DNA from: Brunnivagina elsteri CCALA 953
GTDB lineage: Bacteria > Cyanobacteriota > Cyanobacteriia > Cyanobacteriales > Nostocaceae
Direction: 5' to 3'
Length of the DNA stretch: 40,681 nt
NCBI RefSeq assembly: GCF_002289455.1
Contig: NZ_NTFS01000009.1
Location: forward strand, 1-40,681
Every line of letters starts with the position of its first letter. Within the stretch, counting starts at the first letter, position 1. The position numbers were made by a program, and so were the translations under genes. Shown in pieces: positions 2,580 through 23,640 of the stretch. Below the pieces are notes generated by a model, which did no database searches, was not told the origin of the DNA, and saw only the letters and a list, made by a program, of their open reading frames with translations.

Positions 2580-3173
2580 ATGCAGTCGCCAGAAATGGAA
2601 CATGGGAACGATCGCAATGTCATGGATTCAAGTTCAAACCACAGCAGTAAGCTAGGGAATAATGGTTACGACTTAGCTGGAGTAAATAGTCTAGACAAAG
2701 TGAGAGATATTCTTTTTGGTAATCAATTACGAGATGTCGAAAAGAAATTTCCTCGTTTGGAAGAACGCTTGTTTAAGGAATGTGTGAACTCACGGGAAGA
2801 AAACAAAAAACGTTTGGATAGTCTGGAAAGCTATATAAAGCAAGAATTGGAATCCCTATCCAAACAGATGAAACAGGAACAAGGTAGTCATGATGAAACC
2901 TTGCAAAATCTTGCGGAAGAGAATAAGAAAATAACTACAGCTTTAGAAAATAAACTGAACCAATTCGATGAACATGTAAATACTAGTCAAAGGGAAATGC
3001 GGGAGCAAATTCTCAACCAATCGAAAAGTCTACATGACGACATTTTACAGAAATATGAAGAAATATTAGAAATATTACGTCGTGAAGCTGAAGAACTACG
3101 TCATGCAAAAACAGATCGTTCAACTTTAGCAAATTTGTTAAGCGAGTTAGCAATTCGTTTAAACTCTCAGTAA
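2580..3173 (+). CDS. Coiled-coil protein, first gene of the GTPase/OmpA cassette
   Basis: 197 residues with no signal peptide or membrane segment, so probably cytoplasmic. Residues 1-35 are polar and likely disordered. Residues 38-55 carry a motif-like LDKVRDILFGNQLRDVEKKF. Residues 55-185 are almost entirely heptad-patterned coiled coil rich in E, K, Q and L, and the protein ends in a short leucine-rich helix (LANLLSELAIRL). I do not recognise a named family. It is followed after 139 bases by the OmpA-domain gene and then by a Ras-like GTPase. That gene order suggests a scaffold or effector that binds the GTPase or the membrane protein (inference). The LFG motif is echoed in the next protein (ELRTLLLGVEPKKLSQV), so the two may share a short N-terminal recognition module. 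Confidence 0.75.
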   Translation: MQSPEMEHGNDRNVMDSSSNHSSKLGNNGYDLAGVNSLDKVRDILFGNQLRDVEKKFPRLEERLFKECVNSREENKKRLDSLESYIKQELESLSKQMKQEQGSHDETLQNLAEENKKITTALENKLNQFDEHVNTSQREMREQILNQSKSLHDDILQKYEEILEILRREAEELRHAKTDRSTLANLLSELAIRLNSQ

Positions 3174-3312: not shown

Positions 3313-5088
3313 ATGAGTAAATTTTCCACTAATGGATTTTCCAAAGAATTCTCGAACCTAGATAATCAAGAACCAGAAGAATCAATCAAAGACGAACTCA
3401 ATGAACTTCGCACTTTGTTACTGGGAGTTGAACCAAAAAAGCTGAGTCAAGTCTGCGAATATATCGAAACCCAGAAAATTAAACCTGAAGACATTAGTCG
3501 TATACTTCCAGAAGCGGTAATATTGCGATCGCTCCAAGATAAGCAGTTTGTCGAAGCAATGATTCCGACTATCGAACAAGCGGTAGAAACTTCGGTACAG
3601 AGAGACTTAAACATACTTTCCAACGCGATTTTCCCAATTTTGGGACCATCCACAAGAAGAGCGATCGCATCTGCACTGGAGGAAATGCTTCAATCGTTGG
3701 ACAAAACCCTCGAACACGGTTTCTCAATTCAAAGCTTTAAATGGCGACTCGAAGCCAGACAAACAGGTAAAAGTTTTGCGGAAGTGGTGCTGTTGCGTAC
3801 CTTAATTTATCGGGTTGAGCAAGTATTTCTCATCCACAAAAAAACAGGATTATTACTTCAGCATGTTGTAGCATCCCAGGTAGCAGTCCAAGACCCCGAT
3901 TTGGTCTCAGCAATGCTAACAGCCATTCAGGATTTTGTTAAAGACTCATTTAGTGTGGATAATGGGGACAGGTTACATACCCTAAATTTTGGCGAATTAA
4001 CAATTTGGATTGAGGAAGGACCAACAGCAGTTTTAGCCGGGATTATTCGTGGTAATGCACCCCATGAATTGAGACTTGTTTTTCAAGACACAATCGAAAA
4101 AATACACCTCAGATTCGACAATGAGCTTTATAATTTCCAAGGGGAAACAGAACCATTTAATATCAGTCAACCTTACTTAGAAGATTGCCTCAAGGTTCGC
4201 TATCAAACTCCGAAAAAAACAAACTATAGATACGCGTATACATTAATTGGATTAATTATCTTTGGATTATGTATTTGGGGTTCTTTGATAATCCGCGAAC
4301 AAAAGCAATGGAATAACTTTATCCAACGACTCAGTTCCCAACCAGGAATTACAATTACTAAAGTTCAAAAGGAAAATGGCAAGTACCTCATCACAGGTAT
4401 GCGGGACCCTTTAGCAGTAGACGTTGATAAAATCCGCGAAGAACATAATATCAATCCAGAAAAAATCAAAAGTAAATTTGAACCTTATTTATCATTACAA
4501 CCAGAATTTATTACCAAACGTGCTGAAGCATTACTTCAACCACCAAAAACAGTGTTGCTTAAAGTTGAAAGTGATGGGATTCTATATGCGACTGGTTCAG
4601 CACCTGAGAAATGGATATCAGAAACGCGGAAGATGTGGCATTTTATTCCAGGAATTACTCAATTTCAAGAAAAAAATCTCAGCAATATCGATGTTAGTCA
4701 AATCGAAAGATTTCAACAAGAAATAGAAAGGGAAAAACTGTTATTTCAAGAAGGGAAAAATGACTTAATTGCAAGTGAAGTATCCAAGTTAGAAAAGATT
4801 TTTGCCAAGTTACAAAAAATGGTAATTATGGCAAAATCTCTAAATCAAAATGTCAAAATTAAAATTATCGGACATACTAGTGCGACCGGAACAGAACAGT
4901 ATAATTTGCAACTAAGTCAAGCGCGTGCAGAGCAGATTAAATCTTATTTTATATCAAAGGGATTAAGTGAAGAAAATTTTTATACTCAGGGTTTAGGCTC
5001 AAATCAACCTTTAACTTCATCAACAATAAAACAAGATATAGATACTAACCGTCGAGTCGGTTTTAAAGTTGACAGAATCAACAAATAA
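3313..5088 (+). CDS. Inner-membrane protein with cytoplasmic longin/roadblock-like segment and periplasmic OmpA domain
   Basis: 591 residues. There is no N-terminal signal. A single transmembrane helix lies at about 307-327, flanked by K/R on the N-terminal side, which puts residues 1-305 in the cytoplasm and 330-591 in the periplasm. Residues 165-275 contain VEQVFLIHKKTGLLLQHV followed by DPDLVSAMLTAIQDFVKDSF and a run of strands. This layout resembles longin/roadblock-like modules that partner small GTPases (pattern-based inference). Residues 410-455 look like a BON-type alpha/beta segment. Residues 475-588 form an OmpA-like peptidoglycan-binding domain: IIGHTSATGTEQYNLQLSQA, then RAEQIKSYFISKGL, and NRRVGFKV at the end. 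It lies 41 bases before the GTPase gene, so co-expression is likely. Its probable role is to connect the cell wall with a GTPase-controlled event at the inner membrane. Confidence 0.8.
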   Translation: MSKFSTNGFSKEFSNLDNQEPEESIKDELNELRTLLLGVEPKKLSQVCEYIETQKIKPEDISRILPEAVILRSLQDKQFVEAMIPTIEQAVETSVQRDLNILSNAIFPILGPSTRRAIASALEEMLQSLDKTLEHGFSIQSFKWRLEARQTGKSFAEVVLLRTLIYRVEQVFLIHKKTGLLLQHVVASQVAVQDPDLVSAMLTAIQDFVKDSFSVDNGDRLHTLNFGELTIWIEEGPTAVLAGIIRGNAPHELRLVFQDTIEKIHLRFDNELYNFQGETEPFNISQPYLEDCLKVRYQTPKKTNYRYAYTLIGLIIFGLCIWGSLIIREQKQWNNFIQRLSSQPGITITKVQKENGKYLITGMRDPLAVDVDKIREEHNINPEKIKSKFEPYLSLQPEFITKRAEALLQPPKTVLLKVESDGILYATGSAPEKWISETRKMWHFIPGITQFQEKNLSNIDVSQIERFQQEIEREKLLFQEGKNDLIASEVSKLEKIFAKLQKMVIMAKSLNQNVKIKIIGHTSATGTEQYNLQLSQARAEQIKSYFISKGLSEENFYTQGLGSNQPLTSSTIKQDIDTNRRVGFKVDRINK

Positions 5089-5129: not shown

Positions 5130-5627
5130 ATGCTTCAAAAAAAGATTTGTATGGTGGGTGCTTTTGCTACAGGGAAAACGAGTTTAGTTGCGAGATTTGT
5201 CCATAGCATATTTTCCGGCAAGTATCAAACAACAGTAGGTGTAAAAATAGACAAAAAAACTGTTAATTGTCATGGAAAGGAACTTAACCTTATCCTTTGG
5301 GATTTATATGGTGAAGATGAATTTCAAAAAGTACGCATGTCCTATTTAAGAGGTTCATCAGCTTATTTATTAGTAGTCGATGGAACCCGACATAATACTC
5401 TCGAAAAAGCTCTCAGCTTGCAAATACGAGTCGAAGAGACGGTTGGAAAAGTTCCATTTATCTTAGTGGTCAATAAATCAGATTTGACTGATGAATGGGA
5501 AATTGAAAAAGTAGAACTAGATAAATTAAAACAGCAAGGATGGAGCATTATTCTAACTAGTGCAAAAACAGGAGAAGGAGTAGAAGAAGTGTTTGAAACT
5601 ATTGCTCAAAAAATTTTGGAGGGGTAG
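5130..5627 (+). CDS. Ras-like small GTPase (Rab-type)
   Basis: 165 residues, exactly one G domain. Visible motifs are G1 GAFATGKTS (10-18), a likely G2 threonine at 34/35 in KYQTTVG, G3 WDLYGEDEF (57-65), G4 NKSD (115-118) and G5 SAK (144-146). Known: such proteins switch between GTP and GDP states. The position of Ras Gln61, straight after the G3 glycine, is Glu62 here, so intrinsic hydrolysis is probably slow and a partner may be needed to stimulate it. There is no C-terminal cysteine for lipidation, as expected in a bacterium. The stop codon is immediately followed by the ATG of the PAS-like gene, so the two are translationally coupled. It sits between an OmpA-domain membrane protein and a histidine kinase. 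Confidence 0.93.
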   Translation: MLQKKICMVGAFATGKTSLVARFVHSIFSGKYQTTVGVKIDKKTVNCHGKELNLILWDLYGEDEFQKVRMSYLRGSSAYLLVVDGTRHNTLEKALSLQIRVEETVGKVPFILVVNKSDLTDEWEIEKVELDKLKQQGWSIILTSAKTGEGVEEVFETIAQKILEG

Positions 5628-6029
5628 ATGTTAAATGTCCCCACATCTGTAATTACTTATGTAATAAATCTGATGCTCGAACATCGTTCGTTGGCTTATC
5701 TTCTTGTCAAAAAAGACGGATGTTTATTATCTTGGGGAGGTAAATTAGCGAATTATGGAGTTAAGAACTTAAAAAAGGGGGAAGATATTGGACAACAAAT
5801 TTTCTTTCTCGAAGGATTATTACCATTAGATAATTCTCCTTTATTTCTTGCTTGTTTGAAAACAGGAGACGGTATTTGTGCGGATATTCATCTGTTTCCC
5901 TCTTCAGAAGGTGATTGGGTATTATTTCTCGATGCCACAGTTGATGAAATGCAATTGTCTTTGATTCAACAACAAGCAAATGAATTTGTTCTCGAGCATG
6001 AAAAGGTGACTCGAATACTCAATCAATAA
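5628..6029 (+). CDS. Small PAS-like sensor protein
   Basis: 133 residues, soluble, no signal. The pattern resembles a compact PAS fold: LAYLLVKKDGCLLSWGGKL (about 22-40), a middle helix region ending LPLDNSPLFLACLKTGDG (about 64-81), the strand pair DIHLFPSSEGDWVLFLDAT, and a C-terminal helix with QLSLIQQQANEF that would continue as a signalling helix. The N-terminal part of the next protein has the same plan, with the strand-helix transition ILIIQLLDKDYIERLSIIQQ, so the two may be paralogous sensor modules. The start ATG abuts the GTPase stop. Fold assignment is by eye and uncertain, and no ligand can be named. Confidence 0.6.
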   Translation: MLNVPTSVITYVINLMLEHRSLAYLLVKKDGCLLSWGGKLANYGVKNLKKGEDIGQQIFFLEGLLPLDNSPLFLACLKTGDGICADIHLFPSSEGDWVLFLDATVDEMQLSLIQQQANEFVLEHEKVTRILNQ

Positions 6030-6092: not shown

Positions 6093-7313
6093 ATGAATAA
6101 CTCAATTACCGCAGATATTTTTGCAGCTTTAAATATTCTGATTTTAGAATACATTGATACTGGTCGTTTCCGAATTACAGGAAATATTCCGACTTGGTTA
6201 AAGAGATTTTGTCCTCGAAAAATTAAATCAGGAATGGAAGTTTTGATTCCCGAAGAGGATTTTCCCTTCTTGGAGAATTTTTTAATCGATGCTGAAGAGT
6301 TTTGGCAAAAAGATTTTGAAAATCCTCTGAAATCTGGAATCTGGAGCAATAATGATTTAACTGGGAAAGAATCTCATTTTGAAGCTTCTGCAATTATTGT
6401 CAATCACCAAAAAATATTAATTATTCAATTACTAGATAAAGATTATATTGAAAGACTATCAATTATTCAGCAAGCTCGTGAGAATAAATTAAACCATTAT
6501 CAAGTAGTTAAAGAAAATCAGAAGAAGGAAATTCTGATTCATTGTATTATTCACGATATTGCCGGACAACTAAGTGGTATCAATTGCTGTTTAGCACTAT
6601 TAGAATTTGAAAATTTGACCCCTAAAGGGAAAGAACGTTTAGAAATAGGTCGCAGGCAGTCAATTAAGCAAGAAATGCTGATTCGGGAAGTATTAGATGC
6701 GTTTTCGGCTGAAGTGCGATCGCTTGAATCTTTTGATGTCGATGCTAAAGATGCACCCAATATCTTGAATGCTGCTCAACAAGTTGTGGATTTTTTAACC
6801 CCGACATTTGCACTCAACAAAATGCAGTTAAAATTAGCCCCTGAGATTGATGTAACCCAGGATTGGAGGGTGATTGGTGATAAATCCCGTTTAGAAAGGG
6901 TGATTACGAATTTGACAGAAAATGCCTTTCGTCATAGTCCTAGTGAATCGACTGTTGTGATTGAGTTAATGCAGGATGATGATTCTATTCTTGTGAATAT
7001 TGATGATAAAGGTAGTGGTGTGAAGCCAGAAATGGTTGCCAGTTTGTTTCAAAAATTTTCTCAAGGACAGGGGAAAACAGGTCGAATCGGACTTGGATTA
7101 TATTTTTGTCGCATCACTGTTGAACGTTGGGGTGGTGAAATTGGTTATTCTCCTGTTGCTGATGGTGGTTCTCGTTTCTGGTTTTGTTTACCGAAGCCTA
7201 AGGGGGGATTTAATATGGATTGTGTCGCGCAGAGACGCAGTGAGTCCACTTGGCGGTGTCGGTTTCCGTCCCGCCAAAGTGGCGAACCCGAAGGGAGGCG
7301 CAGAGAGGAATAA
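6093..7313 (+). CDS. Sensor histidine kinase, soluble, with repeat-derived C-terminal tail
   Basis: 406 residues, no membrane segment. Residues 1-145 form a PAS-like sensory part resembling the preceding 133-residue protein. The phosphoacceptor box is IIHDIAGQLSGI with His154. The ATPase domain follows: N box NLTENAFRHSP (273-283), G1 DDKGSGV (304-310) and G2 GLGLYFCR (333-340). The kinase fold should end at about residue 370 (RFWFCLPKPK). The remaining 36 residues are R/S/E-rich and are encoded by a dispersed repeat: 7241-7272 matches 23603-23634 in reverse complement. The tail is therefore acquired, not functional sequence. The start is 63 bases after the PAS-like gene. No response regulator is adjacent, so the phosphotransfer partner must be elsewhere or the kinase acts through the cassette proteins. 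Confidence 0.9.
   Translation: MNNSITADIFAALNILILEYIDTGRFRITGNIPTWLKRFCPRKIKSGMEVLIPEEDFPFLENFLIDAEEFWQKDFENPLKSGIWSNNDLTGKESHFEASAIIVNHQKILIIQLLDKDYIERLSIIQQARENKLNHYQVVKENQKKEILIHCIIHDIAGQLSGINCCLALLEFENLTPKGKERLEIGRRQSIKQEMLIREVLDAFSAEVRSLESFDVDAKDAPNILNAAQQVVDFLTPTFALNKMQLKLAPEIDVTQDWRVIGDKSRLERVITNLTENAFRHSPSESTVVIELMQDDDSILVNIDDKGSGVKPEMVASLFQKFSQGQGKTGRIGLGLYFCRITVERWGGEIGYSPVADGGSRFWFCLPKPKGGFNMDCVAQRRSESTWRCRFPSRQSGEPEGRRREE
7241..7272 (+). repeat. 32-bp dispersed repeat inside the kinase 3' end
   Basis: These 32 bases are the perfect reverse complement of 23603-23634. The surrounding GC-rich stretch (about 7222-7310) differs from the AT-rich kinase gene and resembles the cgca/ggcg-rich mobile repeats common between genes in Nostocales. 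It encodes the extra tail of the kinase. Confidence 0.85.
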
Positions 7314-23511: not shown

Positions 23512-23640
23512 CTTTCAGGTAAGCGCAAAGCGCAGGCTTCGCCAACGCCACTTTGACGAAGAGAAGTTGCGTGCGCGGGTTCCCCGCGTTGAGCAAACTT
23601 CGGGGACGGAAACCGACACCGCCAAGTGGACTCACCCCAC
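23512..23640. repeat. GC-rich cyanobacterial interspersed repeat
   Basis: A GC-rich block with words such as gcgcaaagcgc and gcgcgggttccccgcg stands out from the AT-rich surroundings. Positions 23603-23634 are the reverse complement of 7241-7272 in the kinase gene. It separates the cNMP gene from the HAF remnant and carries no ORF of its own. Confidence 0.7.

Follow-up and report, generated by a model that had tools for sequence, protein, structure and literature searches.

Background

Wuichet and Sogaard-Andersen have described the Group 1 Rup GTPase systems (PMC4316618), and these are the closest known counterparts of the operon we discuss here. As far as the accessible portion of their paper goes, such a system has a coiled-coil gene, a protein that joins a conserved domain to a transmembrane helix and an OmpA domain, a Rup GTPase without the G3 glutamine, and, as its output, a kinase or cyclase/phosphodiesterase in which one glutamine is invariant. 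Our operon has all of these in common with it, and the operon type is therefore already published. The conserved domain is a domain of unknown function in that same portion of the paper, whereas we assign it the longin fold. This assignment is new within the literature searched: our searches returned no report of this domain as a longin, and subscription literature was mostly outside their scope. 'Longin/Roadblock' is listed jointly as present in bacteria in the available part of PMC4917890. The available parts of PMC4316618 and PMC4915359, both of which predate most Asgard data, describe Rup as the prokaryotic group closest to Rab, Ras, Rho and Ran and say that no Rup protein has been characterized.

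The longins of Rab regulators, namely FUZ/MON1/HPS1 (PF19036), TRAPP, Mon1-Ccz1 and Fuzzy-Inturned, have several things in common with our domain: the predicted fold with its order of strands and helices, a weak sequence similarity found in four relatives, and a Rab/Ras-like partner GTPase gene. Our protein, which we call the receptor for short, differs from them in being bacterial and joined to a transmembrane helix and a periplasmic OmpA domain, and its activity is undetermined. In the MglB-MglA pair of Myxococcus and Thermus, too, a small GTPase has a partner of related fold whose gene adjoins its own. MglB differs in being a roadblock domain, which is permuted, and in working with an MglA-family GTPase; it is not known to be fused to a cell-wall domain. 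The longin and roadblock-longin proteins of Asgard archaea share with our system a prokaryotic longin fold and Rab-like GTPases, according to what is accessible of PMC10933270. They are archaeal, and the same text places the GTPase genes of MK-D1 generally outside the longin operons, whereas here the GTPase gene lies inside.

The operon and its receptor

The window, by which we mean the whole stretch of DNA analyzed, is 40,681 nt from Brunnivagina elsteri CCALA 953 (GCF_002289455.1, contig NZ_NTFS01000009.1, forward strand, 1-40,681). The operon reads, all on the + strand, coiled-coil-type protein, 591-aa OmpA-domain protein, Ras-family GTPase, 133-aa protein and histidine kinase. The first gene (2580..3173) is a conserved upstream gene, and its product is judged to be the coiled-coil protein of a Rup operon from sequence and the published operon, without a predictor program. 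It stands side by side with the receptor gene (3313..5088), as in Group 1 Rup systems. The motif L..lR.lLfG opens both the coiled-coil protein (2680-2760) and the receptor (3385-3460). Aligned with hhalign, the two N-termini reach a probability of 67.6 over 31 columns and only 5.5 when whole regions are compared.

The original prediction concerned positions 3805-4140, which are residues 165-276 of the 591-aa frame at 3313-5088, and the segments it quoted are present there. It said that this segment adjoins a small-GTPase gene, precedes a transmembrane helix and shares its protein with a cell-wall-binding domain, and all of this holds. The next gene (5130..5627) encodes a 165-aa Rup-type, that is Ras/Rab-like, GTPase of the Ras family (PF00071, E 4.2e-33). 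The receptor begins with a helical N-terminal region (residues 25-159, 3385..3789, +) whose helices AF2 predicts at low confidence. The predicted longin domain follows (residues 160-292, 3790..4188, +), assigned from AF2 topology and structure matches, and then the transmembrane helix (residues 309-327, 4237..4293, +). That helix has the highest hydropathy of the receptor, 2.24; of 80 aligned proteins, 77, the window's included, have their maximum at 311-319. A periplasmic region without a family match in this protein (residues 328-477, 4294..4743, +) leads to the OmpA-type peptidoglycan-binding domain (residues 478-580, 4744..5052, +; PF00691, E 2.3e-17). OmpA is the sole domain that Pfam recognizes in the 591 residues, and the best 25 of 38 NCBIfam matches are all OmpA-type families.

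We believe it is probable, on the strength of a structural model, that residues ~160-292 form a cytoplasmic longin domain which is linked through the membrane to OmpA and most likely binds the Rup GTPase. The architecture is computed; the binding is inferred.

The predicted fold

Residues 25-305 were modeled with AF2 from an 80-sequence alignment (protein numbering is model numbering +24). Strands are predicted at 164-175 and 181-186, then a helix at 195-212, strands at 223-226, 229-235 and 239-247, a helix at 251-267, a short helix at 269-273 and a helix at 280-290. DSSP reads residues 164-290 of the model in the longin order bb-a-bbb-a-a, which is of course a prediction and not a solved structure. 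The prediction extends the domain by about 20 residues over the interval first proposed. Mean pLDDT is 65.6 overall because the helical region ahead of the domain is poor; the stretch 87-137 falls below 50. Averaged in successive blocks of ten across model residues 141-270, pLDDT is 87, 88, 67, 75, 68, 54, 81, 88, 81, 88, 88, 89 and 87, so nine of the 13 exceed 80 in a range of 54-89. The weaker values include those of the first helix, where the GTPase is supposed to dock (75 and 68), and of the loop that follows (54).

The best VIA-align match of the model is the longin of Sec22b, with Z 13.3 and rmsd 2.9 over 124 of 128 residues (model 141-272). Ykt6 (12.8), chain A of Rab23-Fuzzy-Inturned (12.7) and VAMP7 (12.7) are close behind; TRAPPIII-Ypt1 chain K (11.4) and the Asgard longin 8yqg_A (11.2) come lower, and 198 of the 991 aligned chains have Z >= 8. 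We take the first 38 rows to be longin-fold chains. In Foldseek against the PDB an AP-1 sigma 3 chain has the best E, 1.3e-4, and target-normalized TM scores go up to 0.68. AP sigma, TRAPP, Mon1-Ccz1 and Fuzzy/CPLANE rows have probability 1.00; COPI and Sec22b are listed as well, and MglB from rank 13. A longin/roadblock-type layout had been proposed, to be refuted if modeling confidently gave a different fold or if no longin or roadblock matched. The AlphaFold check gave neither outcome. Longins do match, and the bb-a-bbb-a-a order together with the Sec22b match favors a longin over a roadblock.

Relatives of the receptor

Residues 1-326 are matched in 34 of 60 genomes related to the window's and in 34 of 292 in a sample of the phylum. 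There are two types. Type A, to which the window's protein belongs, has about 600 aa and 55-90% identity; type B paralogues have about 25% identity over residues 61-290 and open frames of roughly 650-1270 codons. The type A and type B domains are linked by an hhalign probability of 99.7, against only 9.6 for their periplasmic regions. In all four full-length type B proteins that were scanned, one or two BON stretches lie between the transmembrane helix and OmpA. A BON domain in the periplasmic region of the window's type was considered and is not claimed, since a single relative out of 47 matched it, at E 0.12. The N-terminal halves of type B proteins (L088, L094, L180) contain repeated-looking helical units before the longin, for example AIAP.I..AI.

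A pattern scan of named genomes confirmed at least 541 relatives, and the best 80 were taken. Among these are 79 relatives, from records of several phyla, with 42-91% identity over residues 25-305. A laboratory strain with the operon is Fischerella thermalis PCC 7521. The non-cyanobacterial records are Acidobacteriota, Verrucomicrobia, Desulfobacterota-type groups, Nitrospira, Latescibacterota, Coatesbacteria and Rhodothermales, every one of them labeled a MAG. This spread argues that type A is not a cyanobacterial oddity, and the conservation in relatives along with the paralogous family argues that the domain is not a product of chance. One contig labeled as a Klebsiella pneumoniae MAG (L164) has a receptor of 38% identity, and a coiled-coil gene, a GTPase and a kinase lie nearby; it is probably a mislabeled bin.

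It is important to realize that the pattern scan used two peptide patterns from the domain, so motif conservation among its relatives is partly selected. The 40 sequences found by similarity to residues 1-326, the window included, have F172-I174 and M201-I205 invariant throughout, and the longest invariant run (M201-I205) sits in the first helix. Position 207 splits the types: all 88 type A sequences have D there, and all 30 of type B have S. These rows were preselected by motif, so in these helix counts the motif's own invariance is by construction. L144, L148, L168, L173, L174 and L184, which are without the search motif, were left out of the identity matrices and helix counts, and L143 was dropped for a frame break in the receptor gene.

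The receptor and its GTPase

The G3 motif of the GTPase is WDLYGED, without the catalytic Gln, and the E after its G is present in at least 90% of 73 aligned GTPases. We assign the GTPase to Group 1 Rup by motif and operon, and not by a tree with reference Rup sequences. Ras matches over the cut-off occur at five places in the window's genome, and this gene is the best of them (E 2.1e-32, the next being 1.1e-6).

The GTPase gene lies directly after the receptor on the same strand in 123 of 137 loci, or 116 of 130 distinct proteins, since seven loci hold a protein already counted. Adjacency here allows from 150 nt of overlap to 600 nt downstream; the median gap is 14 nt. Six genomes have one cassette of each type, and in all of them receptor and GTPase stay with their own type: the type A GTPases average 67-71% identity to other type A GTPases and 33-40% to the type B GTPase of the same genome. 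Divergence of receptor and GTPase is correlated (r 0.96 overall, 0.88 within A, 0.70 within B), uncorrected for phylogeny. Conserved gene order and co-inheritance are thus computed results. Direct binding is proposed by analogy with the longins of TRAPP, Mon1-Ccz1 and Fuzzy-Inturned, which bind Rab GTPases, and we presume that the first helix of the longin lies on the GTPase side.

One objection is that longins also work without GTPases, in SNAREs and adaptors. The domain could have the longin fold and yet be a protein-protein or dimerization module that never contacts the GTPase, which would be regulated by the coiled-coil or output protein instead. We consider this possible, if rather unlikely. 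The adjacent GTPase is missing in the remaining 14 of 137 loci, a count that takes no account of contig ends and includes the four loci that match Fuz_longin_1. Four type B proteins of 1202-1213 aa under one genus label (L092, L180, L181, L182) have no adjacent GTPase, and they have S for the Y of other type B domains read (AGSCYLAV for AGYCYLAV). The objection also draws on Gln126 of the output domain, which is invariant in 65 of 65 aligned proteins. An invariant Gln is likewise present in the systems of PMC4316618, whose accessible portion raises the idea that it is supplied in trans to the GTPase. Against it we would set the tight pairing of receptor and GTPase across the records of several phyla and across paralogues. 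Longin and roadblock domains are moreover reported to resemble each other in how they bind GTPases and to share the orientation (PMC10933270, PMC3521125, each as far as available). The two ideas are not exclusive, and both can hold.

Longin, roadblock or another fold

The domain could instead be a roadblock like MglB, which would make the receptor and its GTPase a membrane-anchored form of an MglA/MglB-like pair. Foldseek does return roadblocks (MglB 3t12 at E 1.7e-3, Asgard Roadblock3 at 7.7e-3), and the AF2 model has an additional helix ahead of the first strand. Robl_LC7 (PF03259) matches 2 of 80 type A members at E <= 1, best 0.022. We nevertheless think a roadblock improbable, because the longin matches also cover the helices after the last strand, as Sec22b does (141-272). 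A roadblock has a permuted order and lacks the second C-terminal helix. The first roadblock-type VIA-align row is Ego3, only at rank 39, with Z 10.3 and covering just 140-252. MglB chains are absent from the best 50 rows, which carries no weight against MglB. The Rup family is also described as uncoupled from MglB in the available part of PMC4316618. The window's genome meets that feature of Group 1 Rup: PF03259 has no match in it at E <= 0.001, in a search that does find matches in 3 of 14 control genomes.

The sequence support for a longin is modest and weaker than the structural support. The window's own domain has no Pfam longin match, PHROGs gave it one chance row (E 0.3), and PDB sequence searches with it and with a type B profile found nothing relevant. 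PF13774 (Longin) is not matched in the window's genome, but it is not matched in the control genomes either, so that search is uninformative. The exception is PF19036, Fuz_longin_1, titled 'First Longin domain of FUZ, MON1 and HPS1', which matches four of ten type B domains scanned (E 2.6e-5, 5.9e-4, 8.5e-4 and 8e-3). The four matches run from the first strand over profile positions 2-99 of 125. None reaches the curated cut-off, the best scoring 24.9 bits against 26.1, and the matching relatives (1202-1213 aa) all come from genomes under one genus label, g35. The other six proteins in that scan are unmatched, L183 (1263 aa) among them, and L079 (1164 aa) has no match either.

Matches to PF19036 are rare in ordinary members, with 3 of 80 type A (best 0.082) and 2 of 20 type B. 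We also searched 148 genomes with this profile, and the best-scoring place is the longin domain of a receptor in genome G143 (E 1.3e-4, identity checked). Two genomes of the same subtype, G036 and G242, gave no PF19036 listing in this search. Some match at E <= 10 occurs in 56 of the genomes, chance matches occur in 3 control genomes, and among the 30 loci fetched only the best one belongs to the receptor family. A Pfam scan of the 80 type A members gave 59 families at E <= 1. DUF2884 is the commonest among the best 25 of these (18 of 80 members, best 1e-4), and in 4 of 20 members rescanned it maps to the helical region before the longin (fragment residues 3-135). Random families reach E 0.004 in such a scan, so the PF19036 match at 2.6e-5 stands out, yet it is no proof. 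The Fuz_longin_1 and Robl_LC7 rows of the 80-member scan are no evidence by themselves.

We give hardly any credence to another profilin-like sensor fold (PAS, GAF) that would sense small molecules, since even though PAS, GAF, longin and roadblock have a common core (stated for PAS and longin in the accessible part of PMC3521125) and no curated Pfam family was reached, longin Z values go to 13.3 across the whole domain against a best PAS Z of 8.3 for the kinase N-terminus, and Fuz_longin_1 matches four relatives. That kinase N-terminus, from the same operon and modeled with 65 sequences, is the one domain used as a control for the fold pipeline. Its mean pLDDT is 84.8, and the best 50 VIA-align rows are PAS, LOV and PYP only, the top Z being near the level that VIA-align calls ordinary; Foldseek listed PilB/EpsE chains too. 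The control came out PAS-like, so in this case the pipeline did not return a longin for a related sheet.

The output proteins

The histidine kinase (6093..7313, +) is the output module of the window's operon. Its residues 1 to ~115 are PAS-like and lead into a helix with the invariant Gln126. The 65 output proteins aligned come from the window and from those pattern-scan loci that have a similar output protein of 330-1000 aa. Other kinases and a sigma-54 activator are among the output proteins elsewhere. We considered the kinase N-terminus as a second longin and rejected this given its PAS-like model. At 406 aa the kinase is longer than its intact Nostocaceae relatives, which have about 370-390. 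A 33-bp stretch close to the 3' end of its gene, 7240-7272, recurs exactly, in inverted orientation, at 23603-23635, as if a repeat ran into the end of the gene.

The 133-aa protein (5628..6029, +) stands alone here, and its counterpart in other genomes forms the N-terminus of a cyclase or of a PAS protein. Pfam shows a relative joined to a class III cyclase domain in locus L132 and to a PAS domain in L145, and relatives in several more loci have similar-looking fusions by eye. It was also tried as a second longin/roadblock and rejected, with an hhalign probability of 0.4 against the longin; its likeness to PAS rests on inspection by eye alone. Nor does hhalign link it to the kinase N-terminus (probability 1.1).

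A possible mechanism and its meaning

The reading we prefer remains a longin domain, anchored to the membrane, at which the Rab-like GTPase most likely docks or is regulated, though there are no binding data. In such a scheme the OmpA domain would grip the peptidoglycan or wall on the periplasmic side, and the single transmembrane helix would relay a positional or mechanical state inward. The longin domain would keep the Rup GTPase at the inner membrane, and the face that carries its first helix is the probable contact. Depending on the envelope's state, the receptor might then change the nucleotide state of the GTPase, by exchange or hydrolysis, and the GTPase would act in turn on the PAS-like domain of the histidine kinase, which is the output protein in this operon. 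A GEF, GAP or receptor role, any dimerization and the signal itself are inferred. Naming the domain a longin gives the Rup system a testable partner, docking face and mechanism. Gene adjacency and predicted fold suggest a longin-GTPase partnership for signaling across the bacterial membrane.

A larger claim would see in the Group 1 Rup operons a longin-GTPase pair that is widespread in bacteria and homologous to the eukaryotic longin-Rab pair of FUZ/MON1 type. We regard this as doubtful for now, and rate it lower still because the Pfam longin matches stem from one genus. If it were true, the Rab-longin unit would have existed in bacteria as a wall-to-cytoplasm receptor before or beside the endomembrane system. 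The longin is usually discussed for eukaryotes and Asgard archaea, and it now appears, as a predicted fold, beside Rab-like GTPases in the records of several bacterial phyla. A bacterial longin beside a Rab-like GTPase would make the origin of longin-Rab regulation directly testable.
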